DNA of 64,000 bases. It comes from Pseudeuparius sepicola (taxonomy: Eukaryota > Arthropoda > Insecta > Coleoptera > Anthribidae). The number at the start of each line of letters is the position of its first letter. Position 1 is the first letter of the stretch. Location of the stretch: positions 11,757,153 through 11,821,152 of the forward strand of contig OY987305.1 in NCBI GenBank assembly GCA_963920635.1. Reading direction: 5' to 3'. The notes beneath the pieces were generated by a model. That model saw only the letters and a list, made by a program, of their open reading frames with translations. It did no database searches and was not told the origin of the DNA. This document shows positions 15,781 to 62,590 of the stretch, piece by piece. A program made the position numbers and the translations under genes.

Positions 15781-15812
15781 AAATAAGTAGTTTGGTATTT
15801 TAAAAATACCTA

Positions 15813-16210
15813 TTGTAAAATAAAAAAAACTTTTTAAAAACAAGCTTTTATTTAAGCCAAAACGAATAAAATAGGTTTAGATTTTCGTTAAGATAATTCA
15901 ATTCCAAATTGTGACAAGTTTTTGCAAATTGAAAAGCTTGTCGCGCGAAATGTATAGATGAAATAAGTAGGTACCTACCTATTAATTTTACTGGACAGTG
16001 ATTGATTGGTTGATAAGGAAGTAGGTACCTATTTGCCAAAGGATGCATTTTTTTCTTTATATAGGTAATTCGCGCGACAAGCTTTTCAATTTGCAAAAAC
16101 TTGTCGCAATTTGTAATTTAATTATTTTAACAAAAACTTAAACTTATTTTATTTGTTTCAGTACATGGCTTAAATAAAAGCTTGTTTTTAAAAAGGTTTT
16201 TTATTTTCAA
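15813..16210. mobile_element. Foldback MITE, about 130-bp arms
   Basis: TTTTTAAAAACAAGCTTTTA on the left is mirrored at the right end, and the inner part of each arm contains TTTGCAAATTGAAAAGCTTG with TCGCGCGAA. The centre (about 15960-16070) is unique and rich in GGTACCTAC. No coding capacity. Confidence 0.75.
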
Positions 16211-16235
16211 TTTTATTTTGTGCTTTTTAACTTTT

Positions 16236-20028: not shown

Positions 20029-20894
20029 TAGAGGAAAGTACCCTAATATGAGACCATATTACATTTTGTTATGTATTTTGTCCTATAATATATTATAATG
20101 CGCAAACTTAGGTCGAATACGTTTAATATAGTCTTTATTTTCACTGCAGTTTATGTAGGATTGCCAAATATTAACAGTTGTTGCGTAAATGAGAATTATG
20201 AAAAAAAGTTAAATCTTCAATTTTTAAAATTGGGTGCCTATGAGATTCTCATACTCATATCCAGGTTTAACAGAAACACTACTTGCCACAAAATAATTTT
20301 TGTTTCAAAAACTTTAAAAGAATATCAAATTAAACTAGTATAGATACAACAATTTAGTTACATCACACTTGACACACTTAACAGGTTCCTAATATGAGAC
20401 AGTCTCATATTAAGGTTTGACAAAAATGCTACTTACCACAAAACAATTTTTATTTCAAAAACATTAAATGAATATAAACTTAACACAGTACAAGTACATC
20501 TCTTTAAATATATAACACTTGACATTCTATTCAAATTATTAGTAATCTAAATTGATGAAGGGGGTCTCCTTATTATGAGATATCTCATATTAGGAACACT
20601 GGGGTGTCTCATATTAGGAATCCGATGTACATATCATAGAATTTTTCAAATGTTATTAAATGCGTTATGTCACTACTCTAATTATAAAGTAACTTTTAAT
20701 CAATACAAGAAGCTACAAAAATATATTAAACACTTACCACGTTATTCAGAATTACACGGTAACCGAAGCTCTTTAAAAGTTTGTGCACGTACGGTTGAAG
20801 TAAACAATGCCGTTCTTAACCTAAAAATTTAGATGAGCTAGACACTGCAGGGCATGTGGCGACTTATACCATTAGTGATTGTTTGAGACATTAC

Positions 20895-21466
20895 TTTAGG
20901 AGTTAGTGTGGAGTCTCGTATTGGTAGTGATGGGCAGAATCGAATATTTTTGAGAATCGAGTAGGTACTTAGTATGCGAGTACTTTTAAGAATCGAACAA
21001 GTATCGATTACAAGTAAGTACTCAAACTTTTTTAGAAGAGGAGGAAAAATAAAACCAACGATACATGCGTGGATGCTTGTATCGTGACCAGAGATATAGA
21101 GGGGGGAGAATGCTTGTCAACGTGCGCAAGACTGCTAATTTTTCTACCGCCATTTTAACCCACGAAAGCTAGTTGGAGACTTTAGGAGTTAGTGTGGAGT
21201 CTCATATTGGTAGTGATTGGGCAGAATCGAATATTTTTGAGAATCGAGTACTTAGTATACGAGTACTTTTCAGAATCGAATAAGTATCGATTACAAGTAC
21301 TCAAACTTTTTTAGAAGAGGAGGAAAAATAAAACCAACGATACATACGTGGATGCGTGTATCGTGACCAGAGATATAGAGGGGGGAGAATGCTTGTCAAC
21401 GTACGCAAGACTGCTAATTTTTCTACCGCCATTTTAACCCACGAAAGTGCGACAAAATAATTTGCT
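20895..21466. repeat. Tandem duplication with 286-bp period
   Basis: TTTAGGAGTTAGTGTGGAGT begins at 20895 and again at 21181, and the two units match closely over their length, including GATACATRCGTGGATGC and GTATCGTGACCAGAGATATA. Each unit contains host-element DNA, the hAT target sequence and about 240 bp of hAT left end. Confidence 0.9.
21203..21210. repeat. Left target-site duplication of nested hAT
   Basis: CATATTGG, identical to 23968-23975. The upstream tandem copy has CGTATTGG at 20917-20924, one transition away. Confidence 0.85.
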
Positions 21467-21661: not shown

Positions 21662-23399
21662 CAAGGGCGTAGATAGCTTTTTCTTCCGGGGGGGGGGGGG
21701 GGTAATGGTAATACCTAATATTTATAGTTCGTCTGTTCCCAATTTTTAGGTTTTATTGCGATTTTATAGGTGGGTAGGGGATAGGTATGCATAAGTAAAG
21801 ACTGTTATAAAGCCAAATAAAACGAACACTAGTAATATATTGAATAACAATATGAATAGGTACTATATACTTAAAACAAAGAACAATGAAACAAACTCAA
21901 AATAAAAAATGATAAAAAATATAAAAATAAAATATATACTTTTTCTTTGATGAAAACAGAATCAAAACAAAAAAATAACAAGAAAAAAAATCAGTCTTTA
22001 AGAAATTTAATCTTAAAAAACATTTATAAACTAAAAAAAAATCAGTCAAAATATAAAAATATATCCACACATAAACCAGTTTTTATAGAATTAAATCTAA
22101 AATCCTTTTGTTACTATTATTGGCAAATCTGTTTAGTACTGCTTCAGGGCAAGGTTTTATATCCCTGTGAATATGTAAAAGCGTCAACCCTACAAGCCTC
22201 TCTTGTCCCATAGTGGACCTCAACCAAGATTTGAGTCTTTTTAAAGATGAAAAACTTCTTTTGGACCGGGAGATAGTGACAGATTTTTGGACGTGATTTT
22301 ACTCAGTATGCCTTGCAAAGGGCATTATGTGGCACATATTCTCACAATAATAAGGTATGAATCAGAGAGTCATCCTGGGTTCTTCATGTGAAAAACTGAG
22401 TTTTCAATTATTCGAAAAATATGCGTTTTGATATAATTTTATACAGGCTGCCATGTTTTTTATAATGAAGTTCAAATAGAAAATTCCTCGGAAAACCATA
22501 GGCATACCGTTAGGGTGGGTCCAAAGGGCTATTATTGCCACGTGGTCTTGTATTTTAATAATTAATTTTTCCACGTTTCTGAACAGGCTGCCAATGAGAA
22601 GTATGCAAGTTCTTATTATGAAAATGCTGAAAAAAGGATGGCATACCTTTCGCGCATGTCCAAGTACACTTTACATCGAATAACTCGTTTAAATGATTAA
22701 ATAACATTCAATTTAAACAGTACTTGGACATGCGCGAAAGGTATGCCATCCTTTTTTCAGCATTTTCATAATAAGAACTTGCATACTTCTCATTGGCAGC
22801 CTGTTCAGAAACGTGGAAAAATTAATTATTAAAATACAAGATCACGTGACAATAATAGCCCTTTGGACCCACCCTAACGGTATGCCTATGGTTTTCCGAG
22901 GAATTTTCTATTTGAACTTCATTATAAAAAACATGGCAGCCTGTATAAAATCATATCAAAACGCATATTTTTCGAATAATTGAAAACTCAGTTTTTCACA
23001 TGAAGAACCCAGGATGACTCTCTGATTCATACCCTATTATTGTGAGAATATGTGCCACATAATGCCCTTTGCAAGGCATACTGAGTAAAATCACGTCCAA
23101 AAATCTGTCACTATCTCCCGGTCTATTTCTCCGAGGCTACCCTTACAGGCAGTGTACACAGAATTTTCAAAAGTTCATATATTTTTGGATATATATTAGG
23201 GTCACACAAAGGTAATGTTTCAGAAGCGGAATTTGGCAGACTTTCTTTGCTAATTTTTTTTTGCGTTTTTTTACAGAGTTCATTATAAAAATTAATACAA
23301 TATTTTTATTTTCGTGGTAATAGCCCAGTGGTTAAGGTTCTGGTTTTCTTGGGGGGGGGGGTAATTACCCCCTCTACCCCCCCCGTATCTACGCCCTTG
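21662..23399. mobile_element. hAT-like MITE, third level of the nest
   Basis: Terminal inverted repeats CAAGGGCGTAGATA, followed on each side by a run of G (left) or C and G (right), and exact 8-bp flanking duplication TGGTCAGA. Contains no transposase. It carries a large foldback unit at 22264-23123. Long G runs (13 G at about 21690, 11 G at about 23351) lie just inside the ends. Confidence 0.88.
22264..23123. mobile_element. Near-perfect 860-bp foldback, fourth level of the nest
   Basis: GACCGGGAGATAGTGACAGA starts the left arm and its inverse ends the right arm at 23123. The arms are about 400 bp and differ at only scattered bases. Shared blocks include GGATGGCATACCTTTCGCGC and CCCACCCTAACGGTATGCC. 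The loop is about 50-60 bp around 22665-22722. No open frame of interest. Target duplication not found. Confidence 0.85.
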
Positions 23400-25409: not shown

Positions 25410-26810
25410 ATCGGTGTCTGAGGCTCATTTTTTATGATAAACTTAATGGCGAAAACCGCAAATCCGTTCTTGAGTTGCAGGGCGTTTTTCGAAAATGTGC
25501 GTTTTCGAAAAGTGGCCGTAAGTTTTTTCGGGTTGAAAATTTTGTATTTTTGTAAAAACATTCCTAAAGCACTTTTTACGTAGAATAATCCAATGCTGCT
25601 ATACTACATTTTTTTCAAGTCAATGGTTTAAGAGTTACCAATGAAAAATATTATTTTTTAAATGGAAATGCCTTGTATATTTTTGCATTTTTTAATAGAG
25701 CAAAAAATTACCATTCCAACACTTAATGATTTTTACTTGGTAGTTATCAATTACTAATAGATAGCTTTTATGATTTCATGTGTATAATTGGAAGCGCGCC
25801 CTTTCAACCAGTACCTAAGCTTTGGACGGTGAGACAATAAAACAACCGTGGAAAAATATTTACCTACTGTTACCTCTCAAATTTTCAGTTAAGCTGTTTA
25901 GGCAGCGTTTTTATTTTTGTGTAATTTATAAACTTTATAACATACGAAATTTGAAAGTTATGAAAAATGGGATATGGTTTAAGAGTTACCGGTGATATTT
26001 TTTTTAAATGGAACATCCTGTATAGTTTTGCATCTTTTAATGGAGCAAAAAATTACAATTCCAAAAATATATGACACTTAATGATTTACTTAAGTAGTTA
26101 TCAATTATAATGAAATTTGAAAGTTATGAAAAAATGGGATATGATAGTCTGTTTTATACAATCCAGGGAAAATGCCTATCTCTGTTTAACTCGTACCTTT
26201 TCGGCCTATCCTTTTCAAAATGCCCACTATTAATCAAATTGTGTCGCAATCTTGAAAAATGTCCTTGATAGATACCTAGATACGATACCGCTCGTAGTAT
26301 AAATTGCTCGTTGCATCTGCATTTAGGTACCCGGGATTGTATAAAACAGACTATCATATCCCATTTTTTCATAACTTTCAAATTTCATTGTAATTGATAA
26401 CTACTTAAGTAAATCATTAAGTGTCATATATTTTTGGAATGGTAATTTTTTGCTCCATTAAAAGATGCAAAACTATACAGGATGTTCCATTAAAAAAAAA
26501 TTCACCGGTAACTCTTAAACCATTGACTTGAAAAAAAAGTAACAGCATTGGATTCTACGTATAAAAGTGCTTTAGGAATGTTTTTACAGAAACACTAAAT
26601 TTTCAACCCGAAAAACGTTACGGCCACTTTTCGAAACCGCAAATTTTCGAAAAACGCCCTGTATGAAGAACGGTGAAAGATATCTATTTGCGGTTTTCGC
26701 CATTAAGTTTATCATAAAAAATGAGCCTCAGACACAGATATCAGTTTTCGTCTATATCCGTTATAAATAGGAGTTTTCCTTTAAAAGTGTCTAATTTGGC
26801 CGACCCTGTA

Positions 26811-29789: not shown

Positions 29790-31910
29790 TCCGTGTAGGG
29801 CACACTTTATTTAAAAGTACAATAGAAGGTATAAACGGAGTTAATTTGGATGCAGTAGCAAAAAATGAGTTTATTAAAAAAACTGAAATGATAAGAAACA
29901 CAATTATTTATGTGAATTAGGTGTTTTTCTAGAATTAGTTACTTTAGTGTGCATGCAAATTTTAATAAAATATTATTCTTCATTTTCACCCTTGTTGCTT
30001 TTCGTGTTTTACATTTTCCTTGCCTTTGCTCCCACGCAGTTTTTGAAAACCCTCTGCCTATGGTACCTACCTATTTTATTTTAATTGACCATAGAGTGTG
30101 TTCTTTTCCAAAGAATGTTTCACATATGCCTAATTTCATATAAATTGGTAATTTTGAAGGTTTTTTACATAATTCCTTATGAATTTTAAATTTTACAATC
30201 TTTACCACTCGGGGTTACTAAAAGTGTCACTAGCGGTACATATTATTTGCGTTCTTCTATTTGAGCACCAAATTATTATTTCCACCTTTTTCAAGAAAAA
30301 CTTGCTTGTTGGATGCATCTTATTCCAAACAATTTTTCAATGGTAATAGCATTTTTACGATGTTATTCTAATAGCATTTCTTAATAACCACCGTCACCAT
30401 CTAAAAGTTAATGTATGATGTCAAATATAAGATTCCCTTTTCCAAAGATTTGTTAAAAATTAAAGAAGGCGAAGTGTGATGCAGTAGTAAAATACAGAAT
30501 ATATTTTTTAAATTCTCAAAAAGATTCATCTGGTTTTATGCTCAAAATAATGAATTACTAAAGTGAAAGATACCAACTTGCAAAAATATTGTTCTTGGGA
30601 CCGGTACGTCAACCAATTCAGAATAAAATCGATAAAATTGTTTCAAACTAGCAAGATATGCAAAATAATAGCTAATACTAGTATAATATAATACCTACTT
30701 GGCTGCTCATGCTAATAATCATACATAAAACTATATTTATCGTCAATCTTCTCTGAAGAATTTCTGATACTACGAATCTTCTGTTCTTAAGTTATAAAAT
30801 ATGTTCATCACAAAGAACAATAAAATTTTTTAATGTAGGTCCTCTTAAATTGACGAAAATACTAACGATTCTTTAAGTGTCCGGCATTCAGGGCTTTGTC
30901 CGTATCAGGTGTTCCAAGCAGTCGATTTATTTAAAAAATCATGGAAATTCCCGTCGCAATAATAATCGAGATGAGTGTTCTTACCTACATCAAGGGTATA
31001 CAGGGTATTTCGAATAAATGAGGCACAATGCGACACATCACCGGACAGGATTATGAGAAATTTCTAAAATTCAAATCTAAAAAACGCAACAGAGTATTAA
31101 TTACATTGTAGGGTTCAGTGAAGAATATAGGAAGAGAAACGACGGGTCTCATTTATAGGTACAAAACGCAGAAGTAGTAAAAAGCATACAACATAATAAC
31201 GTTGATGTATTTTGTTTTTCCTAATGAATCGCAAATTTATAAGGTAGGTATTCAAACTTCATCTCTAATGGTGCCTAATTTTGTCCTTCAGAAACTTCTC
31301 ATTTCGGTAGAAAGTACCTAGTTCCCTTGGGAATATAGGTAACTAACCTAGTCCCTATATTTATATTCGTGATCCTGATTAACCCCGAGATTAACCCAGT
31401 AACAAATTTCCACTGCTCCTATAATTTCTCTTTATTTTCTTATCACCGTGCAGATCTTGTTCATTATAATAGGTTGTAATAGACAGAATAAATTTCGCTC
31501 TGACTTTCCTGCCGAACATTGAATAATTCGTCGACTGAAATGAACAGGGCACTACACACAGCCAACAGTTATTGCACATCACTATTTAGGTGGATTGATA
31601 GTGGAATGCGATAATTAGTTAATAACTTAATGTCACTTTCACTTGGATTCGTTTTTTGCTATTTTCCTGTATTTTAATTGCAATAAATAAATTTATTTTT
31701 CTAGGTAGATAAAACGCCCGTGATATGTAGAAAGTTCATATATCGGCAAAACAGTAAAGCAAAGATATATATAATATAAGCTGATTTGACCCACGTTGAC
31801 CTTTGTTGTTATTGTTTTACCACGCCAGTCACCAACACTATAGAGACTAATTTTTTTAGGTATATTAGCAATGGCATTCCATCGCTGCATATACTATATT
31901 ACTGCATTTT
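29790..31910. other. Presumed intronic DNA with scattered repeat fragments
   Basis: No gene recognised. There is one TACAGGGTATTTCGAATA left-type end at about 31010 without a partner and the dispersed-repeat fragment at 30081-30105. Confidence 0.4.
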
Positions 31911-31919
31911 GATATCCGT
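31911..31919. repeat. 9-bp target-site duplication, left of the giant foldback element
   Basis: GATATCCGT, repeated exactly at 41872-41880, directly abutting both termini. Confidence 0.95.
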
Positions 31920-32017
31920 ATGAGTGTGAAAGCAGCAACGAGTTTTCTAGCAACGACTTCCCCGGGCGGCCCTCGGGTACAGCTTGCACGGATGGTTTTA
32001 CTTCAAAGATAGCAATA

Positions 32018-35000
32018 GGGAAAACCGCCGTTTTCACTTGCATGACTTTTCTTTTAACGGAAATTAGTTTAAGGCCACCTATTCTAACTATCCACGAAGA
32101 ATCAGAATTTGCGAACCTCGTCTTCACCCCTTTCCACCCTCAAGACCGAAAAACGTAAAAAAATCGGGGAAACCGCCGTTTTCACTTGCATGACTTTTCT
32201 TTTCACGGAAATTAGTTTAAGGCCACCTATTCTAACTATCCACAAATAATCAGAATTTGCGAACCTCGTCTTCACACCTTTCCACCCCCAAGACCGAAAA
32301 ACGTAAAAAAATCGGGGAAACCGCCGTTTTCACTTGCATGACTTAGTTTAAGGCCACCTATTCTAACTATCCACGAAGAATCAGAATTTGCGAACCTCGT
32401 CTTCACCCCTTTCCACCCCCAAAACCGAAAAACTTAAAAAAATCGGGAAAACCGCCGTTTTCACTTGCATGACTTTTCTTTTCACGGAAATTAGTTTAAG
32501 GCCACCTATTCTAACTATCCGCAAAGAATCAGAATTTGCGAACCTCGTCTTCACCCCTTTCCACCCCCAAGACCGAAAAACCTAAAAAAATCGGGAAAAC
32601 GGCCGTTTTCACTTGCATGACTTTTCTTTTAACGGAAATTAGTTTAAGGCCACCTATTCTAACTATCCACGAAGAATCAGAATTTGCGAACCTCGTCTTC
32701 ACCCCTTTCCACCCCCAAGACCGAAAAACGTAAAAAAATCGGGGAAACCGCCGTTTTCACTTGCATGACTTTTCTTTTCACGGAAATTAGTTTAAGGCCA
32801 CCTATTCTAACTATCCACGAAGAATCAGAATTTGCGAACCTCGTCTTCACCCCTTTCCACCCTCAAGACCGAAAAACGTAAAAAAATCGGGGAAACCGCC
32901 GTTTTCACTTGCATGACTTTTCTTTTCACGGAAATTAGTTTAAGGCCACCTATTCTAACTATCCACAAATAATCAGAATTTGCGAACCTCGTCTTCACCC
33001 CTTTCCACCCCCAAGACCGAAAAACGTAAAAAAATCGGGGAAACCGCCGTTTTCACTTGCATGACTTAGTTTAAGGCCACCTATTCTAACTATCCACGAA
33101 GAATCAGAATTTGCGAACCTCGTCTTCACCCCTTTCCACCCCCAAGACCGAAAAACGTAAAAAAATCGGGGAAACCGCCGTTTTCACTTGCATGACTTTT
33201 CTTTTCACGGAAATTAGTTTAAGGCCACCTATTCTAACTATCCACAAAGAATCAGAATTTGCGAACCTCGTCTTCACCCCTTTCCACCCCCAAAACCGAA
33301 AAACTTAAAAAAATCGGGAAAACCGCCGTTTTCACTTGCATGACTTTTCTTTTCACGGAAATTAGTTTAAGGCCACCTATTCTAACTATCCGCAAAGAAT
33401 CAGAATTTGCGAACCTCGTCTTCACCCCTTTCCACCCCCAAGACCGAAAAACCTAAAAAAATCGGGAAAACGGCCGTTTTCACTTGCATGACTTTTATTT
33501 TCACGGAAATTAGTTTAAGGCCACCTATTCTAACTATCCACAAAGAATCAGAATTTGCGAACCTCGTCTTCACCCCTTTCCACCCCCAAGACCGAAAAAC
33601 TTTAAAAAATCGGGAAAACCGCCGTTTTCACTTGCATGACTTTTCTTTTCACGGAAATTAGTTTAAGGCCACCTATTCTAACTATCCACAAAGAATCAGA
33701 ATTTGCGAACCTCGTCTTCACCCCTTTCCACCCCCAAGACCGAAAAACTTTAAAAAATCGGGAAAACCGCCGTTTTCACTTGCATGACTTTTCTTTTCAC
33801 GGAAATTAGTTTAAGGCCACCTATTCTAACTATCCACAAAGAATCAGAATTTGCGAACCTCGTCTTCACCCCTTTCCACCCCCAAGACCGAAAAACCTAA
33901 AAAAATCGGGAAAACGGCCGTTTTCACTTGCATGACTTTTATTTTCACGGAAATTAGTTTAAGGCCACCTATTCTAACTATCCACAAAGAATCAGAATTT
34001 GCGAACCTCGTCTTCACCCCTTTCCACCCCCAAGACCGAAAAACTTTAAAAAATCGGGAAAACCGCCGTTTTCACTTGCATGACTTTTCTTTTCAGGGAA
34101 ATTAGTTTAAGGCCACCTATTCTAACTATCCACGAAGAATCAGAATTTGCGAACCTCGTCTTCACCCCTTTCCATCCCCAAGACCGAAAAACGTAAAAAA
34201 ATCGGGAAAACGGCCGTTTTCACTTGCATGACTTTTATTTTCACGGAAATTAGTTTAAGGCCACCTATTCTAACTATCCACAAATAATCAGAATTTGCGA
34301 ACCTCGTCTTCACCCCTTTCCACCCCCAAGACCGAAAAACGTAAAAAAATCGGGGAAACCGCCGTTTTCACTTGCATGACTTTTCTTTTCAGGGAAATTA
34401 GTTTAAGGCCACCTATTCTAACTATCCACGAAGAATCAGAATTTGCGAACCTCGTCTTCACCCCTTTCCATCCCCAAGACCGAAAAACGTAAAAAAATCG
34501 GGAAAACGGCCGTTTTCACTTGCATGACTTTTATTTTCACGGAAATTAGTTTAAGGCCACCTATTCTAACTATCCACAAATAATCAGAATTTGCGAACCT
34601 CGTCTTCACCCCTTTCCACCCCCAAGACCGAAAAACGTAAAAAAATCGGGGAAACCGCCGTTTTCACTTGCATGACTTTTCTTTTCACGGAAATTAGTTT
34701 AAGGCCACCTATTCTAACTATTCACGAAGAGTCAGAATTTGCGAACCTCGTCTTCACCCCTTTCCACCCCCAAGAACGAAAAACTTAAAAAAATCGGGAA
34801 AACCGCCGTTTTCACTTGCATGACTTTTCTTTTCACGGAAATTAGTTTAAGGCCACCTATTCTAACTATCCACAAAGAATCAGAATTTGCGAACCTCGTC
34901 TTCACCCCTTTCCACCCCCAAGACCGAAAAACGTAAAAAAATCGGGGAAACCGCCGTTTTCACTTGCATGACTTTTCTTTTCACGGAAATTAGTTTAAGG

Positions 35001-38000
35001 CCACCTATTCTAACTATCCACGAAGAATCAGAATTTGCGAACCTCGTCTTCACCCCTTTCCACCCTCAAGACCGAAAAACGTAAAAAATCGGGGAAACCG
35101 CCGTTTTCACTTGCATGACTTTTCTTTTCACGGAAATTAGTTTAAGGCCACCTATTCTAACTATCCACAAAGAATCAGAATTTGCGAACCTCGTCTTCAC
35201 CCCTTTCCACCCCCAAGACCGAAAAACTTTAAAAAATCGGGAAAACCGCCGTTTTCACTTGCATGACTTTTCTTTTCACGGAAATTAATTTAAGGCCACC
35301 TATTCTAACTATCCACAAATAATCAGAATTTGCGAACCTCGTCTTCACCCCTTTCCACCCCCAAGACCGAAAAACGTAAAAAAATCGGGGAAACCGCCGT
35401 TTTCACTTGCATGACTTTTCTTTTCACGGAAATTAGTTTAAGGCCACCTATTCTAACTATCCACAAAGAATCAGAATTTGCGAACCTCGTCTTCACCCCT
35501 TTCCACCCCCAAGACCGAAAAACTTAAAAAAATCGGGAAAACCGCCGTTTTCACTTGCATGACTTTTCTTTTCACGGAAATTAGTTTAAGGCCACCTATT
35601 CTAACTATCTACAAAGAATCAGAATTTGCGAACCTCGTCTTCACCCCTTTCCACCCCCAAGACCGAAAAACCTAAAAAAATCGGGAAAACGGCCGTTTTC
35701 ACTTGCATGACTTTTATTTTCACGGAAATTAGTTTAAGGCCACCTATTCTAACTATCCACAAAGAATCAGAATTTGCGAACCTCGTCTTCACCCCTTTCC
35801 ACCCCAAGACCGAAAAACTTTAAAAAATCGGGAAAACCGCCGTTTTCACTTGCATGACTTTTCTTTTCACGGAAATTAGTTTAAGGCCACCTATTCTAAC
35901 TATCCACAAAGAATCAGAATTTGCGAACCTCGTCTTCACCCCTTTCCACCCCCAAGACCGAAAAACTTAAAAAAATCGGGAAAACCGCCGTTTTCACTTG
36001 CATGACTTTTCTTTTCACGGAAATTAGTTTAAGGCCACCTATTCTAACTATCCACAAAGAATCAGAATTTGCGAACCTCGTCTTCACCCCTTTCCACCCC
36101 CAAGACCGAAAAACCTAAAAAAATCGGGAAAACGGCCGTTTTCACTTGCATGACTTTTATTTTCACGGAAATTAGTTTAAGGCCACCTATTCTAACTATC
36201 CACAAAGAATCAGAATTTGCGAACCTCGTCTTCACCCCTTTCCACCCCCAAGACCGAAAAACTTTAAAAAATCGGGAAAACCGCCGTTTTCACTTGCATG
36301 ACTTTTCTTTTCAGGGAAATTAGTTTAAGGCCACCTATTCTAACTATCCACGAAGAATCAGAATTTGCGAACCTCGTCTTCACCCCTTTCCACCCCCAAG
36401 ACCGAAAAACTTTAAAAAATCGGGGAAAACCGCCGTTTTCACTTGCATGACTTTTCTTTTCACGGAAATTAGTTTAAGGCCACCTATTCTAACTATCCAC
36501 AAAGAATCAGAATTTGCGAACCTCGTCTTCACCCCTTTCCACCCCCAAGACCGAAAAACTTTAAAAAATCGGGAAAACCGCCGTTTTCACTTGCATGACT
36601 TTTCTTTTCACGGAAATTAATTTAAGGCCACCTATTCTAACTATCCACAAATAATCAGAATTTGCGAACCTCGTCTTCACCCCTTTCCACCCCCAAGACC
36701 GAAAAACGTAAAAAAATCGGGGAAACCGCCGTTTTCACTTGCATGACTTTTCTTTTCACGGAAATTAGTTTAAGGCCACCTATTCTAACTATCCACAAAG
36801 AATCAGAATTTGCGAACCTCGTCTTCACCCCTTTCCACCCCCAAGACCGAAAAACTTAAAAAAATCGGGAAAACCGCCGTTTTCACTTGCATGACTTTTC
36901 TTTTCACGGAAATTAGTTTAAGGCCACCTATTCTAACTATCCACAAAGAATCAGAATTTGCGAACCTCGTCTTCACCCCTTTCCACCCCCAAGACCGAAA
37001 AACCTAAAAGAATCGGGAAAACGGCCGTTTTCACTTGCATGACTTTTATTTTCACGGAAATTAGTTTAAGGCCACCTATTCTAACTATCCACAAAGAATC
37101 AGAATTTGCGAACCTCGTCTTCACCCCTTTCCACCCCCAAGACCGAAAAACTTTAAAAAATCGGGAAAACCGCCGTTTTCACTTGCATGACTTTTCTTTT
37201 CACGGAAATTAGTTTAAGGCCACCTATTCTAACTATCCACAAAGAATCAGAATTTGCGAACCTCGTCTTCACCCCTTTCCACCCCTAAGACCGAAAAACT
37301 TAAAAAAATCGGGAAAACCGCCGTTTTCAATTGCATGACTTTTCTTTTCACGGAAATTAGTTTAAGGCCACCTATTCTAACTATCCACAAAGAATCAGAA
37401 TTTGCGAACCTCGTCTTCACCCCTTTCCACCCCCAAGACCGAAAAACCTAAAAAAATCGGGAAAACGGCCGTTTTCACTTGCATGACTTTTCTTTTAACG
37501 GAAATTAGTTTAAGGCCACCTATTCTAACTATCCACGAAGAATCAGAATTTGCGAACCTCGTCTTCACCCCTTTCCACCCCCAAGACCGAAAAACGTAAA
37601 AAAATCGGGGAAACCGCCGTTTTCACTTGCATGACTTTTCTTTTCACGGAAATTAGTTTAAGGCCACCTATTCTAACTATCCACGAAGAATCAGAATTTG
37701 CGAACCTCGTCTTCACCCCTTTCCACCCTCAAGACCGAAAAACGTAAAAAAATCGGGGAAACCGCCGTTTTCACTTGCATGACTTTTCTTTTCACGGAAA
37801 TTAGTTTAAGGCCACCTATTCTAACTATCCACAAATAATCAGAATTTGCGAACCTCGTCTTCACCCCTTTCCACCCCCAAGACCGAAAAACGTAAAATAA
37901 TCGGGGAAACCGCCGTTTTCACTTGCATGACTTTTCTTTTCACGGAAATTAGTTTAAGGCCACCTATTCTAACTATCCACGAAGAATCAGAATTTGCGAA

Positions 38001-39500
38001 CCTCGTCTTCACCCCTTTCCACCCCCAAGACCGAAAAACGTAAAAAAATCGGGGAAACCGCCGTTTTCACTTGCATGACTTTTCTTTTCACGGAAATTAG
38101 TTTAAGGCCACCTATTCTAACTATCCACGAAGAATCAGAATTTGCGAACCTCGTCTTCACCCCTTTCCACCCCCAAGACCGAAAAACGTAAAAAAATCGG
38201 GGAAACCGCCGTTTTCACTTGCATGACTTTTCTTTTCACGGAAATTAGTTTAAGGCCACCTATTCTAACTATCCACGAAGAATCAGAATTTGCGAACCTC
38301 GTCTTCACCCCTTTCCACCCCCAAGACCGAAAAACGTAAAAAAATCGGGGAAACCGCCGTTTTCACTTGCATGACTTTTCTTTTCACGGAAATTAGTTTA
38401 AGGCCACCTATTCTAACTATCCGCAAAGAATCAGAATTTGCGAACCTCGTCTTCACCCCTTTCCACCCCCAAGACCGAAAAACCTAAAAAAATCGGGAAA
38501 ACGGCCGTTTTCACTTGCATGACTTTTATTTTCACGGAAATTAGTTTAAGGCCACCTATTCTAACTATCCACAAAGAATCAGAATTTGCGAACCTCGTCT
38601 TCACCCCTTTCCACCCCCAAGACCGAAAAACTTTAAAAAATCGGGAAAACCGCCGTTTTCACTTGCATGACTTTTCTTTTCACGGAAATTAGTTTAAGGC
38701 CACCTATTCTAACTATCCACGAAGAATCAGAATTTGCGAACCTCGTCTTCACCCCTTTCCACCCCCAAGACCGAAAAACGTAAAAAAATCGGGAAAACGG
38801 CCGTTTTCACTTGCATGACTTTTATTTTCACGGAAATTAGTTTAAGGCCACCTATTCTAACTATCCACAAATAATCAGAATTTGCGAACCTCGTCTTCAC
38901 CCCTTTCCACCCCCAAGACCGAAAAACGTAAAAAAATCGGGGAAACCGCCGTTTTCACTTGCATGACTTTTCTTTTCACGGAAATTAGTTTAAGGCCACC
39001 TATTCTAACTATTCACGAAGAATCAGAATTTGCGAACCTCGTCTTCACCCCTTTCCACCCCCAAGAACGAAAAACTTAAAAAAATCGGGAAAACCGCCGT
39101 TTTCACTTGCATGACTTTTCTTTTCACGGAAATTAGTTTAAGGCCACCTATTCTAACTATCCACAAAGAATCAGAATTTGCGAACCTCGTCTTCACCCCT
39201 TTCCACCCCCAAGACCGAAAAACGTAAAAAAATCGGGGAAACCGCCGTTTTCACTTGCATGACTTTTCTTTTCACGGAAATTAGTTTAAGGCCACCTATT
39301 CTAACTATCCACAAAGAATCAGAATTTGCGAACCTCGTCTTCACCCCTTTCCACCCCCAAGACCGAAAAACTTTAAAAAATCGGGAAAACCGCCGTTTTC
39401 ACTTGCATGACTTTTCTTTTCACGGAAATTAGTTTAAGGCCACCTATTCTAACTATCCACAAATAATCAGAATTTGCGAACCTCGTCTTCACCCCTTTCC
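32018..39500 (+). repeat. Forward array of 148-bp monomer, about 50 copies
   Basis: Each monomer carries ACCGCCGTTTTCACTTGCAT, GGCCACCTATTCTAACTATC, AATTTGCGAACCTCGTCTTC and ACCCCTTTCCACCCCCAAGA. Monomers differ at a few linked positions: the A-rich junction after CGAAAAAC (G, C, T or TT next), CCGCCG versus CGGCCG, and CTTTTC versus TTTTAT. Two monomers near 32345 and 33067 share a short deletion that joins GACTTAG to TTTAAGG. The period of 148 is not a multiple of three, and the repeated open frames of 65 or 84 codons are by-products. Confidence 0.95.
39436..39500. repeat. Inversion point (65-nt spacer) between the two arrays
   Basis: The forward array stops inside a monomer at CACCCCTTTCC (39500) and the inverted array starts at AAACTAATTTCCGTG (39501). 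Pairing of the arms begins with GGAAATTAGTTT ending at 39435, leaving a 65-base unpaired segment that is itself monomer sequence. Confidence 0.9.
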
Positions 39501-41773
39501 AAACTAATTTCCGTGAAAAGAAAAGTCATGCAAGTGAAAACGGCGGTTTTCCCGATTTTTTAAAGTTTTTCGGTCTTGGGGGTGGAAAGGGGTGAAGACG
39601 AGGTTCGCAAATTCTGATTCTTTGTGGATAGTTAGAATAGGTGGCCTTAAACTAATTTCCGTGAAAAGAAAAGTCATGCAAGTGAAAACGGCGGTTTCCC
39701 CGATTTTTTTACGTTTTTCGGTCTTGAGGGTGGAAAGGGGTGAAGACGAGGTTCGCAAATTCTGATTCTTCGTGGATAGTTAGAATAGGTGGCCTTAAAC
39801 TAATTTCCGTGAAAAGAAAAGTCATGCAAGTGAAAACGGCGGTTTCCCCGATTTTTTTACGTTTTTCGGTCTTGGGGGTGGAAAGAAGTGAAGACGAGGT
39901 TCGCAAATTCTGATTCTTTGTGGATAGTTAAAATAGGTGGCCTTAAACTAATTTCCGTGAAAAGAAAAGTCATGCAAGTGAAAACGGCGGTTTTCCCGAT
40001 TTTTTTAAGTTTTTCGGTCTTGGGGGTGGAAAGGGGTGAAGACGAGGTTCGCAAATTCTGATTCTTTGTGGATAGTTAGAATAGGTGGCCTTAAACTAAT
40101 TTCCGTTAAAAGAAAAGTCATGCAAGTGAAAACGGCGGTTTTCCCGATTTTTTAAAGTTTTTCGGTCTTGGGGGTGGAAAGGGGTGAAGACGAGGTTCGC
40201 AAATTCTGATTCTTTGTGGATAGTTAGAATAGGTGGCCTTAAACTAATTTCCGTGAAAAGAAAAGTCATGCAAGTGAAAACGGCGGTTTTCCCGATTTTT
40301 TAAAGTTTTTCGGTCTTGGGGGTGGAAAGGGGTGAAGACGAGGTTCACAAATTCTGATTCTTTGTGGATAGTTAGAATAGGTGGCCTTAAACTAATTTCC
40401 GTGAAAATAAAAGTCATGCAAGTGAAAACGGCCGTTTTCCCGATTTTTTTAGGTTTTTCGGTCTTGGGGGTGGAAAGGGGTGAAGACGAGGTTCGCAAAT
40501 TCTGATTCTTTGTGGATAGTTAGAATAGGTGGCCTTAAACTAATTTCCGTGAAAAGAAAAGTCATGCAAGTGAAAACGGCGGTTTTCCCGATTTTTTAAA
40601 GTTTTTCGGTCTTGGGGGTGGAAAGGGGTGAAGACGAGGTTCGCAAATTCTGATTCTTTGTGGATAGTTAGAATAGGTGGCCTTAAACTAATTTCCGTGA
40701 AAATAAAAGTCATGCAAGTGAAAACGGCCGTTTTCCCGATTTTTTTAGGTTTTTCGGTCTTGGGGGTGGAAAGGGGCGAAGACGAGGTTCGCAAATTCTG
40801 ATTCTTTGTGGATAGTTAGAATAGGTGGCCTTAAACTAATTTCCGTGAAAAGAAAAGTCATGCAAGTGAAAACGGCGGTTTTCCCGATTTTTTTAAGTTT
40901 TTCGGTCTTGGGGGTGGAAAGGGGTGAAGACGAGGTTCGCAAATTCTGATTCTTTGTGGATAGTTAGAATAGGTGGCCTTAAACTAATTTCCGTGAAAAG
41001 AAAAGTCATGCAAGTGAAAACGGCGGTTTCCCCGATTTTTTTACGTTTTTCGGTCTTGGGGGTGGAAAGGGGTGAAGACGAGGTTCGCAAATTCTGATTA
41101 TTTGTGGATAGTTAGAATAGGTGGCCTTAAACTAATTTCCGTGAAAAGAAAAGTCATGCAAGTGAAAACGGCGGTTTTCCCGATTTTTTAAAGTTTTTCG
41201 GTCTTGGGGGTGGAAAGGGGTGAAGACGAGGTTCGCAAATTCTGATTCTTTGTGGATAGTTAGAATAGGTGGCCTTAAACTAATTTCCGTGAAAAGAAAA
41301 GTCATGCAAGTGAAAACGGCGGTTTCCCCGATTTTTTAAAGTTTTTCGGTCTTGGGGGTGGAAAGGGGTGAAGACGAGGTTCGCAAATTCTGATTCTTTG
41401 TGGATAGTTAGAATAGGTGGCCTTAAACTAATTTCCGTGAAAATAAAAGTCATGCAAGTGAAAACGGCCGTTTTCCCGATTTTTTTAGGTTTTTCGGTCT
41501 TGGGGGTGGAAAGGGGTGAAGACGAGGTTCGCAAATTCTGATTCTTTGTGGATAGTTAGAATAGGTGGCCTTAAACTAATTTCCGTGAAAAGAAAAGTCA
41601 TGCAAGTGAAAACGGCGGTTTTCCCGATTTTTTTAGGTTTTTCGGTCTTGGGGGTGGAAAGGGGTGAAGACGAGGTTCGCAAATTCTGATTCTTTGTGGA
41701 TAGTTAGAATAGGTGGCCTTAAACTAATTTCCGTGAAAATAAAAGTCATGCAAGTGAAAACGGCGGTTTTCCC
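39501..41773 (-). repeat. Inverted array of 148-bp monomer, about 15 copies
   Basis: Same monomer and same variant classes as the forward array, on the opposite strand. It is much shorter than the forward arm, so the foldback is strongly asymmetric. Confidence 0.95.
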
Positions 41774-41880
41774 TATTGCTATCTTTGAAGTAAAACCATC
41801 CGTGCAAGCTGTACCCGAGGGCCGCCCGGGGAAGTCGTTGCTAGAAAACTCGTTGCTGCTTTCACACTCATGATATCCGT

Positions 41881-42782
41881 TTACAAATGATGGTGTCGGT
41901 GAACCTTTTTATTTTGAATTAAACTGAATTAAATTAGTGAAGTGCAAAGCGCTATTGTCTATTTTAAAAGTAAGTGTAAACCAAGGTTAGTTTATAGGAA
42001 GGTTAGGACATTCGACGGCTTGGAAGGGAAGAAGGGGTGAGAGAGGCAAGGGGACGTAAGGGTGAATTTAAGTTGGTAGCATTTTCACGTAAATTGGCGA
42101 TTTAGTAACTCCCTAACCATTTAACCTTCTAGCCATAGGCGCACACAGACGTTTTTGGCATATTAACTTGACGCTTGCTGTCAAAGGCGTGTTTCTTGTT
42201 TACTTTAGTTTACACGTAAATTTTTTATATTGCTTTGGACATTTTCCCTCTTGAAATGTCTCGGTGTTCGTTTATTTCCGACTTTCGGTAACTGCGTTAC
42301 CCTTCCTGATACGCCACTGGTATCAAACTGTGAGAAAGTTTGGTTTTATTTAAGAGTGGGGGAATGTCCCAACCTTCCTATAAACTACACTGAAATAATT
42401 ACTTTGCTACGGTTAGTAAGAACCCAATTACCGCAGCAAATAATATCTGCATTAAATAGGCGCCGAGTGAGTTACTTCGTTACCGCAGCAAAGCACGCTT
42501 TGCTAAAGACAACTCAATTGCAGTAATTAGTAATCAGATTTGTTGAAAATCACTATGCTGTTATAATTCGATCTTGTATTAAAGCAAGTGAGTCAGCAGT
42601 CAGCTCACAAGTTAGTTGCTTAACTACCTACCGTAGCACTAGCACTAGCCACAAGTGAGTTGCTTACCTACCATAGCAAATAATTTATTTGTGGTTGTAT
42701 TAATTTTTGTTGCTGTAAATGAGTCCAGTCAGTAATGGTAATTGAATTGCTTAGCTACTTCTACTCCAGCAAAGCCAACGAG
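41881..42782. other. Presumed intronic DNA with degenerate GAGTTGCTTA repeats
   Basis: Words like GTGAGTTGCTTACCTACC and ACCGCAGCAAA recur irregularly at about 42460, 42605, 42650 and 42745, suggesting an old short tandem repeat. The open frame at 42230-42526 has no recognisable domain. Confidence 0.4.
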
Positions 42783-42957
42783 TTTGCTTAACTCCACACA
42801 CCAAAACTTTGTTTTTTGCACTCGACGCGCGTTTCGCAAACCATCAGGAGATGATTAAGACTTAATCATCTCCTGATGATAGTGATGATGCTAAAATTGT
42901 TAGCGAAACGCACGTAGAGTGCAAAAAACAAAGTTTTGGTGTGTGGAGTTAAGCAAA
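42783..42957. repeat. 175-bp hairpin
   Basis: TTTGCTTAACTCCACACACC and its exact inverse bound arms of about 55 bp that also share CAAAACTTTGTTTTTTGCAC. A second small hairpin (AGGAGATGATTAAG / CTTAATCATCTCCT) sits in the centre. Probably a small foldback MITE. Confidence 0.8.
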
Positions 42958-45770: not shown

Positions 45771-45990
45771 TTAAAAAGCTTTTGCCACTATTAGGCAAGC
45801 TGTCAGACTGAACCGCCGTTGAAGTGAACACGTGGAATATGTGGACAACTGTTGTTTTTACAACAATGCACTGGGACATCTGTTTTTTTTTTTCCAAAAC
45901 AAGCCGAATTTGGGAATTAATTCTAAGTCGGACCACTGAGGTTTTTACACTATTTGATGTTTGGAAGTGTGTATATGGTATTTTACTATA

Positions 45991-47486
45991 CAGGGTGAGT
46001 TTTTTTCGATGCCCACTATGGCGATCTCGGAAACTAGCCGAGCTAAAACAAAGGTTAAATGGGGAAAGAATTGCGGTTTTGATTGCTCAACCTAATGCCT
46101 AATGCCCCTTTTGGATTTTTAAAAAAGTTCATGGCTCACTAGATATTTTGAAAAGAGTGATTTTTACTAGTTAATCAGATCTCTGTTACTCCGTTATTTC
46201 TGATTATACAGAAAAACTGCAGAGACAAAAATTGTAGATAATTTTGGGCTTAATAAGACAATCTAATCCAATTTTTTATGTTGTTTGTGCTTTTTGACAT
46301 AAACTTGTGTTTTTTAAATGTAAATCATAGTTGGCTGTGGCCTTATAAAATCGGCCATTTTTTGAGCTTTCCAAAGATATAATACTCGGCATAGTTATTA
46401 TAAAAAATAAAAGAACTATGGCTAATTTTCTGATTTTTTAGCCATGGAATATTTTCAAAATTACGTTCTATTTTATAATAAGACATACTTCAAACTTTCA
46501 AATATTTTATTTTTAGCTGGTAACAAAATGTAACAAAATAAAACAAAAATTATCATGATGGGGCTCCACCACATAATTATTTGCCCGTAAGAAATTACCT
46601 AGATCAGCTCGATCCAAATAGTTGGATAGGGAGAAATAGACTTATTGCCTGGCAGCCCCGATCCCCCAATTTGTCTGTTTTGGATTTATTTTTGTGGGGA
46701 ACAGTACAAAATAAAGTATGAGGCAATTGTTGAATTAAGAGCAGCTGTTTTAGAAGCAATTGCCAGTATTGATTGAAAGGCGACAAAAATTCAGTTTTAA
46801 AAAGATGCAATATTTGCATAAATAATAATGGTGGATTGTTTGAACACCTTTTTTATTTTAAAAGGTGAGCTTTTAAAATAATAATAATTTGAATTTGAGT
46901 TTTTTTATTTTTGTTTTAATTTGTTACATTTTGTTACCAGCTAAAAACAAAATATTAGAAAGTTTGAAGTATCTCTAATTATAAAATAGAATGTAATTAT
47001 GAAAATATTTCATGGCTAACTATGTGAAAATTAAAAAAAAAACAGAAAATTAGCCATAGCTCTTTTATTTTTTATAATAACTATGCAGAGTATTATATTT
47101 CTGGAAAGCTCAGAAAATTACCGATTTTATAAGGCCACAGCCAACTATGATTTACATTATAAAAAACACAAGTTTATGTCATATCTCAAAAATCACAAAC
47201 AACATAAAAAATTGAATTAGATTATCTTATTAAGCCCAAAATTATCTACAATTTTTGTCTTTACAGTTTTTCTGTACAATCAGAAATTACGGAGCTACAG
47301 AGATCTGATGAAATAGCAAAAAATCACTCTCTTCAAAATATAAAGTGAGCCATGAACTTCTTTAAAAATCCAAAAGGGGCATTAGAATGACCATTCAAAA
47401 CTGCAATTCTTTTCCCATTTAACCTTTGTTCTAGCTCTGCTAGTTTCCGAGATCCCTATAGTGGGCATCGAAAAAAACTCACCCTG
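45991..47486. mobile_element. Mariner-like element with about 560-bp inverted repeats
   Basis: TA-flanked CAGGGTGAGTTTTTTTCGAT at 45991 and its inverse ending at 47486. The arms match, with a few differences, for more than 500 bp, through CCCACTATNGNGATCTCGGA, TTTTCTGTANAATCAGAAAT, GGCTGTGGCCTTATAAAATC and TAGCTGGTAACAAAATGTAA. The remaining centre (46557-46860) is the tail of a transposase. The element seems to have arisen when the long arms were retained and most of the coding region was lost. Confidence 0.85.
46557..46860 (+). pseudogene. Mariner-like transposase C-terminal fragment
   Basis: Reads DGAPPHNYLPVRNYLDQLDP, NSWIGRNRLIAWQPRSP and NLSVLDLFLWGTVQNKV, then a TGA at 46719-46721, with the frame continuing after a one-base shift as EAIVELRAAVLEAIASID. 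The DGAPPH and W-PRSP-L--LD-FLWG motifs surround the second and third catalytic residues of mariner-like transposases. The aspartate expected after RSP is asparagine here. Everything upstream of DGAPPH is missing, so the fragment cannot be active. Confidence 0.8.
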
Positions 47487-47689
47487 TATAAATCTGCATA
47501 AAGTCGATTTTCGGTTAAAATGTACATGTGTTGTTTTTCAAATAAACGCCTCAATTTCTTGTTTACATTTTTTCCAAAATTAAAAACAAAAAAGTTAAGG
47601 GGGGTAGAATGTCATGCGAATGACCCTGTACTATGGGTGGAATTTGATTGTGAACATCCCGGTATAAGAAAATTTGATGCTCGTTTCAG

Positions 47690-48779: not shown

Positions 48780-51356
48780 TGTGACATAATTTTCATTTTG
48801 ATTTAGCCACCGAGTCAGAATACCTTTGAAATTCTTTGAATATCTCATATTCTTTATCTCCACCGGAAGGGTATTGAAAAACCTTGTTCCAACATAGCTA
48901 AATGATTGTTGTCCTTTTGTTGTTTGAGCTTTAGATGTGGCTATATTTTCAGCTTTTCTGGACCTTGTTTTATATTCATGTGTTGCATTTGTCTATCATA
49001 TTTTTTTTAACCATATGTAATAGTGAAGCTTTATAAAATAAAGCTTGTATATTTAATATTTGTATATGCTGATATATCTGATTTAATGGAAATCGGGGAT
49101 TTAACCTGTATATAATTTTAATTAATTTTTTCTGGAGGACCTCAATAGGATTTATGTGGCATTGGTATGTTCCACCCCAACCTACAATTCCGTATTGTAG
49201 TTGAGACTGTATAAGAGCAAAATACAAACTTCTCAACTGATTTATACTAAGAATGCCAGTTATTTGTTTAAACAGATATAAAAGCGATCTTAATTTTTTT
49301 GCTAAATATTGGCAGTGTAGATCCCATTTTATATGGGTATCCAGTATTATTCCGAGATATTTTGCATGTTTAGATGTATTTAGAGTCCATATAGCGTTCC
49401 TATGTGGAATGTTGATGTTTATTTTGTTATTTTTTGGTAATTTAATTTTATTGTTAGAAAAGGGTAGGTAGATCGTCTTGTCGGTATTTAACGTTAGGAG
49501 ATTAATATCTAACCAGCATGCTATTTTTTATAGGTCTTGAGTTAGGAGCCGTTCGACATCTTCCCATGTCCTTCCCTCTATGAACAAAACAGTGTCATCA
49601 GAAAACGATATAAGTGTTCCTGAACAATTTATTGAAAGTAATTGGTTTATGTATAGCAGAAATAGAATTGGCCCAATGACCGTACCTTGTGGAATGCCAC
49701 ATTTAACTAATGTTCTTTTGCTGCGGATTTTGTCGATTTCCACTATTTGATATCTATTTTTTAAATAATCTTCTACAAGGTTTTGGGCAACACCACGGAG
49801 ACCCATAACCCACAATCTTTCTAAGAGTTTTTTATGATTCACCGTATCAAATGCCTTGGCAAGGTCTAAAAAAATTGCTGCGCATGGTTTACTTGCATCG
49901 ATGTTTTGATGTATTTTACTAACAAGGTAGGCAATGGCGTCAGAGGTCCCTTTGTTTTTTTTTGAAAGCCGTATTGTTGTTGTGAAATTATGCTATGTTT
50001 TTCTAAATAGCTGACAATTCTAGCTTTAAATGCTTTTTCAAATATTTTGGATATATTCGACGTAAGACTTATGGGTCTATCATTGTTAACTTTATCCCTT
50101 TCTTCTTTTTTAAAAATGGGTTTTATTATGGTTGTTTTAAAATGGTTTGGACATACGCCAGTTAAAAATATTGTGTTGATGATGTAGGTTAGTGGCTTTA
50201 AAATAAATGGTGATATTTGTTTTAATGTGTAAGATGTTACTTCATCAAATCCAGGACTAGAATTATTTCTTAAATTGATTATTAGTTTTTTTATTTCCGA
50301 TTCAGTTACTGGATGAAGAAATAACGAATCAATTATAGTACTCTGAGGATATGAATATATTTCGGTATTACTTTGTATTTGGTTGTGAATGTCGTTTGCC
50401 ATTTTTCCTCCAATTTCCGAAAAGTAATTGTTAAATATCTCGACAATATCTGTGACGTTGGTTTCTTTTTCATTTTGTTTATTTATGATTTCCGATATTT
50501 TGTTATTTGTTGTATTTAGATTGTTATTATATTCTTTGAGAATTTGCCACATTTTCTTGCTGTTGGTAGAATTGTTATTTATAATTTTTCTATAATATTG
50601 CTGCTTTAGTTTTTTAGCTAAATTGTTTGCTTTATTTCTGTAATCCTTATATTGTTGTTTGCTTAGTGCATTGTTGTCTTTATTATATTGTTTATGATAT
50701 TTGTCTCGAAGTTTTATAAGATGTACTAGATTGCTGTTAACCCATGGCTTTTTATTACTTTTTTTCTTGTAAGTTTTTTTGTATGTTGAGTTTTCTATAC
50801 CGTTTTTTATGACTTGTACCAACTTGTTAGTAACATAATTCACATCTCTGCTATTATAAATTTGGTTAAAATTTTGTTTCCTTAGGTAGTTATTAATTTT
50901 ATCATAATTTATATATTCTTTTATAATGGTAGATTCTTCATATATTTCTGTCAATGTGTCATAAACTAGTATAATGGGATAGTGATCTGTAATTTTGGAA
51001 TGTGATATTATTGGTAACAATTCATCTTGTTTTATATTTTTCGATTTTATAAATATATGATCAAGACAACTTTTTGCGTTTCCTTCTACCCTTGTATATT
51101 TGTTTATCAATGATTTGTAACCACTTTCGTATAAGACATTTAAATAATCTTCACAGTTGTCAGACAGATTTAAGATGTTTATATTGATGTCACCAATTAA
51201 AATTTCTGTGTTCTTCTTTGCTTGTAATGAAGTGTACATTTGTAATTCTGTGATGAATTCATTTATGTTCACTTCATGCGGTCTATAAATTGCAGTTAGT
51301 CCTATCTCTTCTTTACTTAACTTAAGAATGACGCGAATACAATTAATGCTTGCCAC
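48780..51356 (-). pseudogene. Endonuclease / reverse transcriptase polyprotein, nearly intact
   Basis: The endonuclease part has IGLTAIYRPHEVNINEF, EILIGDININILN and AKSCLDHIFIKS with KITDHYPI near its end. The N-terminal catalytic segment of the AP-type endonuclease is missing, because the frame begins in mid-domain at 51356. The RT part has NSSPGFDEVTSYTLK, HFKTTIIKPIFKKEERDKVN, RPISLTSNISKIFEK and QQYGFQ. A frameshift in the A-run near 49965 moves it to the next frame, which has the motif A sequence AAIFLDLAKAFDTVNHKKL, then KCGIPQGTVIGPILFLLYIN and FSDDTVLF, where alanine would be usual before DD. Further frames carry QLQYGIVGWGGTYQ and RYSKNFKGILTRWL. The few lesions point to moderate age. 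Confidence 0.82.
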
Positions 51357-51746
51357 ATATTTATATTTGTGTATGTTGGGTTTTGTTTAAATTTGTTACA
51401 AAAATGAATAAAAGCATGTAATAAAATTACATTTAACAGAAGATTTGCTATTTTCATATCTCCGACTTCAACCTGGAATCTGGACATCTTCACACTCTTC
51501 ACCTTCAGCCTTCAACGTTTACACAAAAGAGAGATTTTTGCTCCCGTTCATTTTTTTTTAAATTTATGGATCTACATGAGAAATCACTACACTTGCCTAT
51601 ATACCGCGGTTATTGTCGGTTATAACGATGACGTATGAAGGGCTTCTTTGTGACGTCAGAGAGCTATAACCAACAATAACCGAATCGCGTAAACGTGTTT
51701 GGCATTTACCGGTTATTAATGGTTATTCGCCTAAAATCGACTAATG

Positions 51747-52031
51747 TCTGTCGTAGGTTTTCTAAACCATTTTTTATTCAAGACTAGAAACATATTATCC
51801 AGCGTCGCACTAAGATGAGAGAATGGTATCAATCTGGGATCATGTTATTATGTGTTAGGTTTAGCATTTTAAAAAGTACAGTACTTCTTTTTAACTTCTT
51901 TTTAATTTTTGAATCTACAAAACTTTCAAGGGTATAGTTTATTTTATATGATCATCTTTAATTTAATTGTAAGTAGTTAATATAGGATAAATTGGCTTTA
52001 TGTCAGTTTTGCACTGTTTGTTATATCTACA
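51747..52031. other. Presumed intronic DNA, nothing recognised
   Basis: AT-rich sequence between two elements, without recognisable features. Confidence 0.4.
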
Positions 52032-52335
52032 TACAGTGTGTCCCACTTAAGGACTGACCACCCCTGTAAAATTTTGACTTATATCTCGATTTTCATAAAC
52101 TTTTTTTTGTTTTGTGGAGCTTCAAAAATGGCATTAAATGCATAATTCAGGTGCCTCGTGTGTTAAATTCATGGCCCACTGAGACGGTGTTTTAGTGTTG
52201 ACATTTCGATAAGTACTATTAGGGATTTTCTTAGAGGAAAATTAATGCCGGATTCTTGTTCAGCGTTGTTTGAAAACCAATCGTACCAATTTGCATTACC
52301 GTAGCTCTACAGGGTGTTTCAAAATTTTGACTGAA

Positions 52336-52440
52336 ATTTGAGTTTATGTTATGTTGTGTTGTTTGTTCATGTATTTGTTGATACTAATAATTAAAAAATG
52401 ATTATTTTGTTGCCTAAGAAAATTAATTACAAATTGGTAC
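52336..52440. other. Unique spacer between the arms of the 8.3-kb element
   Basis: TTTGAGTTTATGTTATGTTG and following AT-rich sequence occurs once and separates the single left arm from the tandem right arm, as the loop of the ancestral MITE. Confidence 0.65.
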
Positions 52441-52489
52441 GTTTTTGTTCGAAACATCTCACTGCGTATAAGAATCCGGCCTTACTTTT

Positions 52490-60170: not shown

Positions 60171-60311
60171 CATGAATTTAAAGCACAAGGTACCTGAATT
60201 ATGAATTTAATGCCATTTTTGAAGCTCTATCCAACCAAAAAAGTTTATGAAAATCGAGCTATAAATAAAAATTTTACAGGGGTGGTCAGTCCTTAAGTGG
60301 GACACAATGTA

Positions 60312-61735: not shown

Positions 61736-61737
61736 TA

Positions 61738-62582: not shown

Positions 62583-62590
62583 TATATATA

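Follow-up and report, generated by a model that had tools for sequence, protein, structure and literature searches.

Tandemly repeated satellite DNA within the inverted termini of a transposable element has precedents, here summarized from the accessible portions of the papers cited. In Tribolium castaneum, the inverted termini of the 9.5-kb element Rehavkus-1_TC contain tandem copies of a 164-bp satellite (PMC10218199); this satellite is apparently TCsat23, which occurs there mostly as 5 and 8 monomers (PMC10218199, PMC6446971). The Rehavkus group is characterized by 9-bp duplications, ends of 26-400 bp, and a minisatellite, is hosted by arthropods or annelids, and possesses one ORF, for a transposase with a PHD finger (PMC6446971). 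Tetris, from Drosophila virilis, is a non-autonomous foldback element in which a flanking domain (up to 866 bp, sharing 37 bp with the repeat) is followed by tandem repeats of ~220 bp and by a middle domain; fibre-FISH shows long internal arrays between two flanking domains, target duplications are 8-10 bp, and, as far as the available text of the source extends, a transposase was not found (PMC4079207). Tetris goes unmentioned in PMC10783647, and figures in PMC12910113 merely as a reference.

More distant comparisons are provided by Tm1 and Galileo. The Tm1 Mutator/Foldback family of root-knot nematodes has ends with a variable number of tandem repeats (13-15 bp each) and mostly 9-bp duplications; described elements measure 1.1 and 2.6 kb, and one group encodes a MULE-like transposase (PMC3169594). 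Galileo, a P superfamily element of Drosophila, has long, internally repetitive inverted ends and 7-bp duplications; some copies consist almost wholly of two ends, and the F subfamily has two or three repeats of ~210 bp (PMC3573991, PMC3688188). Secondary transposase sites lie in the end repeats of one Galileo subfamily, a property described as untested for Foldback and Phantom elements in the accessible part of PMC3688188. In the portion available of an arthropod MULE survey (PMC13359780), the terms foldback and tandem repeat are absent.

The insert described here is, in our assessment, likely to be a non-autonomous foldback DNA transposon that arrived as one unit, most plausibly through a Mutator/Rehavkus-type transposase encoded elsewhere.

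Boundaries and ends of the insertion

The window (the whole stretch of DNA analyzed, 64 kb long, 35.6% G+C, with zero N) contains an insert of 9,952 bp, at 31920-41871, flanked on both sides by exact copies of GATATCCGT (Table 1). A whole-window search of both strands recovers this 9-mer at 31911 and 41872 and nowhere else, its reverse complement included, confirming the original prediction of an exact 9-bp duplication at both edges. Two given 9-mers would agree by chance with a probability of ~8e-6 at the base composition of the window, and the GATATCCGT match additionally coincides exactly with the limits of a perfect 131-bp inverted repeat. By eye, a 10-bp direct repeat, TGATATCCGT from 31910, is an alternative reading, with a T before each copy; the 9-bp reading is preferred because it leaves the inverted ends symmetrical.

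Table 1. Features of the insertion, in window coordinates.
Feature	Position	Strand	Basis
Left target site duplication, GATATCCGT	31911..31919	+	Exact-match search; 10 bp possible from 31910
Left 98-bp terminal domain, outside the satellite	31920..32017	+	Inverted-repeat and BLAST comparison
Left satellite arm, ~51 units of 148 bp, array entry at consensus phase 45	32018..39501	+	TRF, anchor count, alignment
Junction of the opposed arrays, one shared base (A), without a unique middle	39501..39501		Alignment
Right satellite arm, ~15 units, opposite orientation, array entry at phase 45	39501..41773	-	TRF, anchor count, alignment
Right 98-bp terminal domain, same sequence as the left one, inverted	41774..41871	-	Inverted-repeat and BLAST comparison
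Right target site duplication, GATATCCGT	41872..41880	+	Exact-match search

The perfect inverted repeat that forms the termini of the insert comprises the 98-bp terminal domain and the first 33 bp of the array. The ends are thus identical, as had been predicted, but the predicted length of 98 bp applies to the part outside the array, the perfect inverted end being 131 bp. The terminal sequence starts ATGAG. Within the 64-kb window the 98-bp domain yields 2 BLAST matches, the two insert ends, and hence one pair only. Its G+C content of 50% exceeds that of the element (42%) and of the 10 kb on the left-hand side of the element (35%). The 98-bp end shows no similarity to the 148-bp monomer above that of shuffled sequences (one strand gives a score of 13, which 144 of 200 shuffles attain, and the other a score of 12, attained by 194 of 200). 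A role for this domain as a structured DNA end was considered and rejected, as 172 of 200 shuffles fold at least as well; likewise, a search of 31800-42000 for structured RNA gave no Rfam match at the gathering threshold.

The longest open frame in the insert spans 98 codons from stop to stop, and the insert therefore cannot encode a transposase. Exact-match searches of IMG/VR recovered neither a 21-mer of the end nor a 27-mer of the monomer. Among GTDB contigs the 21-mer of the end had one hit, in Macrococcus (L001), which we take to be a chance match because the adjoining base differs on both sides (by eye).

Satellite arms and monomer history

The two opposed arrays measure 50.8 (left) and 15.4 (right) units of 148 bp by TRF, with 94% and 97% matches, respectively, and 51 and 15 units by an anchor count (14-mer, at most 2 substitutions); the "about 65 copies" originally predicted are therefore right. 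Three longer anchor words gave fewer units (48 + 13, 22 + 11, and 19 + 9), those skipped lying mostly at multiples of 148. Because the left and right arms alike pass from terminal domain to array at element position 99, in consensus phase 45, domain and array form one module. The 2,371 bp of the right arm align over their whole length with the outermost 2,337 bp of the left, at 95.8% identity; at the tip, ~65 nt of left-arm monomer lie past the pairing point of the right arm's inner end and have no inverted partner. Beyond the insert, BLAST finds no match to the monomer in the window.

The comparison covered 64 complete monomers, each delimited by successive anchors (50 from the left arm and 14 from the right), and left out partial units at the ends and junction. 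The mean number of differences is 4.16 for left-left pairs, 3.62 for right-right pairs, and 3.91 for left-right pairs; identical pairs number 18 of 700 left-right and 39 of 1225 left-left. The variant types of 10 of the 14 right monomers are also present in the left arm. At no column of the 64 complete monomers is there a fixed difference between arms; 10 columns are polymorphic in both arms, 4 in the right only, and 27 in the left only; of the latter, as many as 17 represent a single 17-bp deletion counted per column. Since fixed differences are absent, and since shuffled arm labels equal the observed differentiation in 636 of 2000 trials, the arms behave as one pool. Their common variants could reflect either exchange between the arms or a recent common origin.

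A monomer order common to both arms is weakly supported. Left-arm monomers L30-L34 match right-arm monomers R03-R07 in variant order, in a local alignment equalled by 31 of 1000 order shuffles and scoring 9, versus 7 for the reversed-order control. The longest exact left-right run is four variant types (equalled in 41 of 2000 shuffles), and the best fixed register, at offset 42, joins 8 pairs with 2.25 differences (14 of 500 shuffles); the registers of best agreement have no single common offset. Within the left arm, L24-L28 repeats L09-L13 as a block duplication (1 of 200 shuffles does as well), a run of four types recurs exactly elsewhere (2 of 1000 shuffles), and L00-L01 and L05-L06 have 1 difference in 279 bases. 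Neighbouring left monomers are not more alike than random left pairs (4.29 versus 4.16 differences), and one-by-one slippage is accordingly rejected as the main mode of growth. These block duplications, together with the lack of closer resemblance between neighbours, suggest growth in multi-monomer blocks.

Other repeats and relics in the window

Foldback-like DNA is abundant in the window. A second satellite-bearing structure occupies 52031-60312, where TRF identifies a 279-bp unit repeated 27.8 times at 99% (52526-60301), and where one inverted copy, 82-90% identical to the array units, lies left of the array at 52031-52328. Its ends are ATACAGTGTGTCCCAC and a near inverse; a clear target duplication was not found by eye, and the window self-comparison yields no match between this structure and the 148-bp element. 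A different 279-bp unit is present twice, at 94% (TRF), at 20893-21447, and the self-comparison likewise does not match it to the 279-bp satellite of 52.5-60.3 kb. Further, an 862-bp near-perfect palindrome at 22264-23123 is 96.5% identical to its own reverse complement, with no 9-bp duplication seen by eye at its edges, and an inverted-repeat element at 45987-47490 has arms of ~590 bp at 87% and ends, TATACAGGGTGAG, that are consistent, by eye, with a TA duplication. Self-comparison recovers more palindromic or inverted-repeat units at 9264-9535, 15812-16211, 25410-26739, 42783-42957, 61734-62588, and 62859-63121.

The window also holds a retrotransposon relic, in three overlapping or adjacent frames on the minus strand at 48976-51386; the middle frame (49528-49992) contains a reverse-transcriptase domain (Pfam RVT_1, E 6.8e-19), and the other two have no Pfam match above the cut-off. 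The frame at 49866-51386, 8 kb from the element, has 83 database relatives at E <=0.001 among 7997 candidates scored. Eleven of these relatives bear organism names (25-47% identity across the 11), 6 being beetles (Callosobruchus, Molorchus, Zophobas) and the others Colias, Parnassius, Aphis, Uroleucon, and Hydractinia. The host is thus likely to be an insect and may be a beetle, and the insect origin originally predicted is plausible. A 125-aa frame on the minus strand at 1902-2279, which we take to resemble part of a Penelope-like reverse transcriptase, has only a sub-threshold Pfam match, to PDDEXK.

Origin of the element and relation to known systems

The insert is read as a foldback element because exact 9-bp duplications adjoin perfect inverted ends. 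It displays the long inverted ends with tandem subrepeats expected of such elements and, at this one insertion, a target site duplication of the size (~9 bp) expected of the Mutator type. Mutator duplications are 8-11 bp, a range that includes the one observed here and a feature common to some other superfamilies. The 9-bp duplications, ends of 26-400 bp, and minisatellite near the end that mark the Rehavkus group are likewise all found when the 131-bp perfect end is taken as the end; if the arms count as ends, the length is 2.37 kb. By analogy, a link to the Mutator/MULE superfamily is probable from the length of the target duplication and the architecture of the one insertion examined, and the element probably works like a Mutator-type foldback. 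Of the FB/MULE element originally predicted, the foldback architecture, single insertion, and non-autonomous character are supported by the 9-bp duplication, inverted ends, opposed arrays, and lack of any frame above 98 codons, whereas the MULE affiliation is an extrapolation from the duplication and architecture just described. That the element moved recently, as also predicted, is weakly supported by its intact ends, because exchange between arms can also keep ends perfect.

It is conceivable that the inverted second arm is an artefact of long reads or of assembly, created by a hairpin read or a false join. The single shared base at the junction of the opposed arrays would fit this, since artefacts of this kind can show inverted junctions in tandem arrays with 1 bp of common sequence. 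A hairpin read is nonetheless unlikely because the right arm at the junction is no mirror copy of the inner left arm. Monomers paired in the mirror register (offset 36) differ at 4.2 positions on average, compared with 3.9 over all left-right pairs, and offsets 18 and 27 bring the mean down to 2.6 and 2.8, respectively; the data therefore do not support mirror copying at the junction as it now stands. Moreover, the outer ends adjoin different flanks, with the 9-bp duplication, and altogether we find an artefactual origin barely credible. It is also highly improbable that a satellite array simply grew at this locus and that its inverted ends are incidental. Homogeneous arrays (94% and 97% TRF matches) do make up most of the insert, but on either side they give way, in the same phase, to identical 98-bp domains and then to the 9-bp duplication. 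Array growth after insertion of a shorter copy is compatible with the foldback explanation.

An alternative that deserves more weight, while still unlikely, retains the same non-autonomous foldback element and assigns its mobilization to a transposase from a different superfamily (Merlin, P/Galileo-like, or unnamed) that makes duplications of similar size. Foldback ends with tandem repeats also occur in Galileo, of the P superfamily (PMC3573991), and Merlin elements have 8-9 bp duplications and can carry tandem repeats (PMC8101967). However, in the accessible descriptions Galileo duplications are 7 bp (PMC3573991), as opposed to 9 (or 10) bp here, and Merlin ends start 5'-GG (PMC8101967), as opposed to ATGAG.

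If the insert is a foldback transposon of Mutator/Rehavkus affinity, a transposase acting in trans, most likely from that group, would recognize the 98-bp ends and perhaps also sites repeated in the monomers, and the element would be cut out and joined to its target with a 9-bp stagger. The arms, which consist of tandem 148-bp repeats, would have grown in blocks of several monomers, and the one pool of variants that they exhibit may have been produced by common descent, or by unequal exchange and conversion between arms. A former middle may have been lost, or the arms may derive from an inverted duplication, leaving the two arrays directly joined.

We tentatively propose, as a possibility still open to considerable doubt, that the element amounts to two 98-bp end signals plus satellite, such that the transposase moves the ~10 kb array as a unit, the monomers perhaps offering putative sites, and exchange between arms keeps one pool. 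If true, this would make the element a vehicle by which long satellite arrays are set down at new genomic sites in one step. The spread of satellite DNA to new places is an open question, and the element offers a concrete case: a complete, single-insertion foldback in which carrier, boundaries, and monomer history are all readable, and in which one can examine whether long arrays are moved intact or lengthen once inserted.

The original prediction that a single-unit insertion with opposed satellite arrays is unusual was overstated, for Tetris and Rehavkus-1_TC share the general plan. So far as the available descriptions extend, Galileo resembles the present element in its long repetitive inverted ends, but differs in its P superfamily membership, 7-bp duplications, and few repeats. 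Tm1 has foldback ends, tandem repeats, and 9-bp duplications in common with it, but the repeats of Tm1 are 13-15 bp rather than 148 bp. The likeness to Tetris is closer, with a flanking domain and tandem repeats in each inverted end and duplications of 8-10 bp, although the end here is 98 bp, there is no middle, and end and monomer show no similarity above shuffles. Rehavkus-1_TC, likened by description rather than by sequence, is similar in length and in the satellite of its inverted termini; in comparison with Rehavkus and TCsat23, the element has no frame above 98 codons and has 51 + 15 monomers of 148 bp. The element is a further example of a type known from flies and beetles rather than a new kind of element, and what distinguishes it within that type is the 51:15 asymmetry, the absent middle, and the undifferentiated arms.
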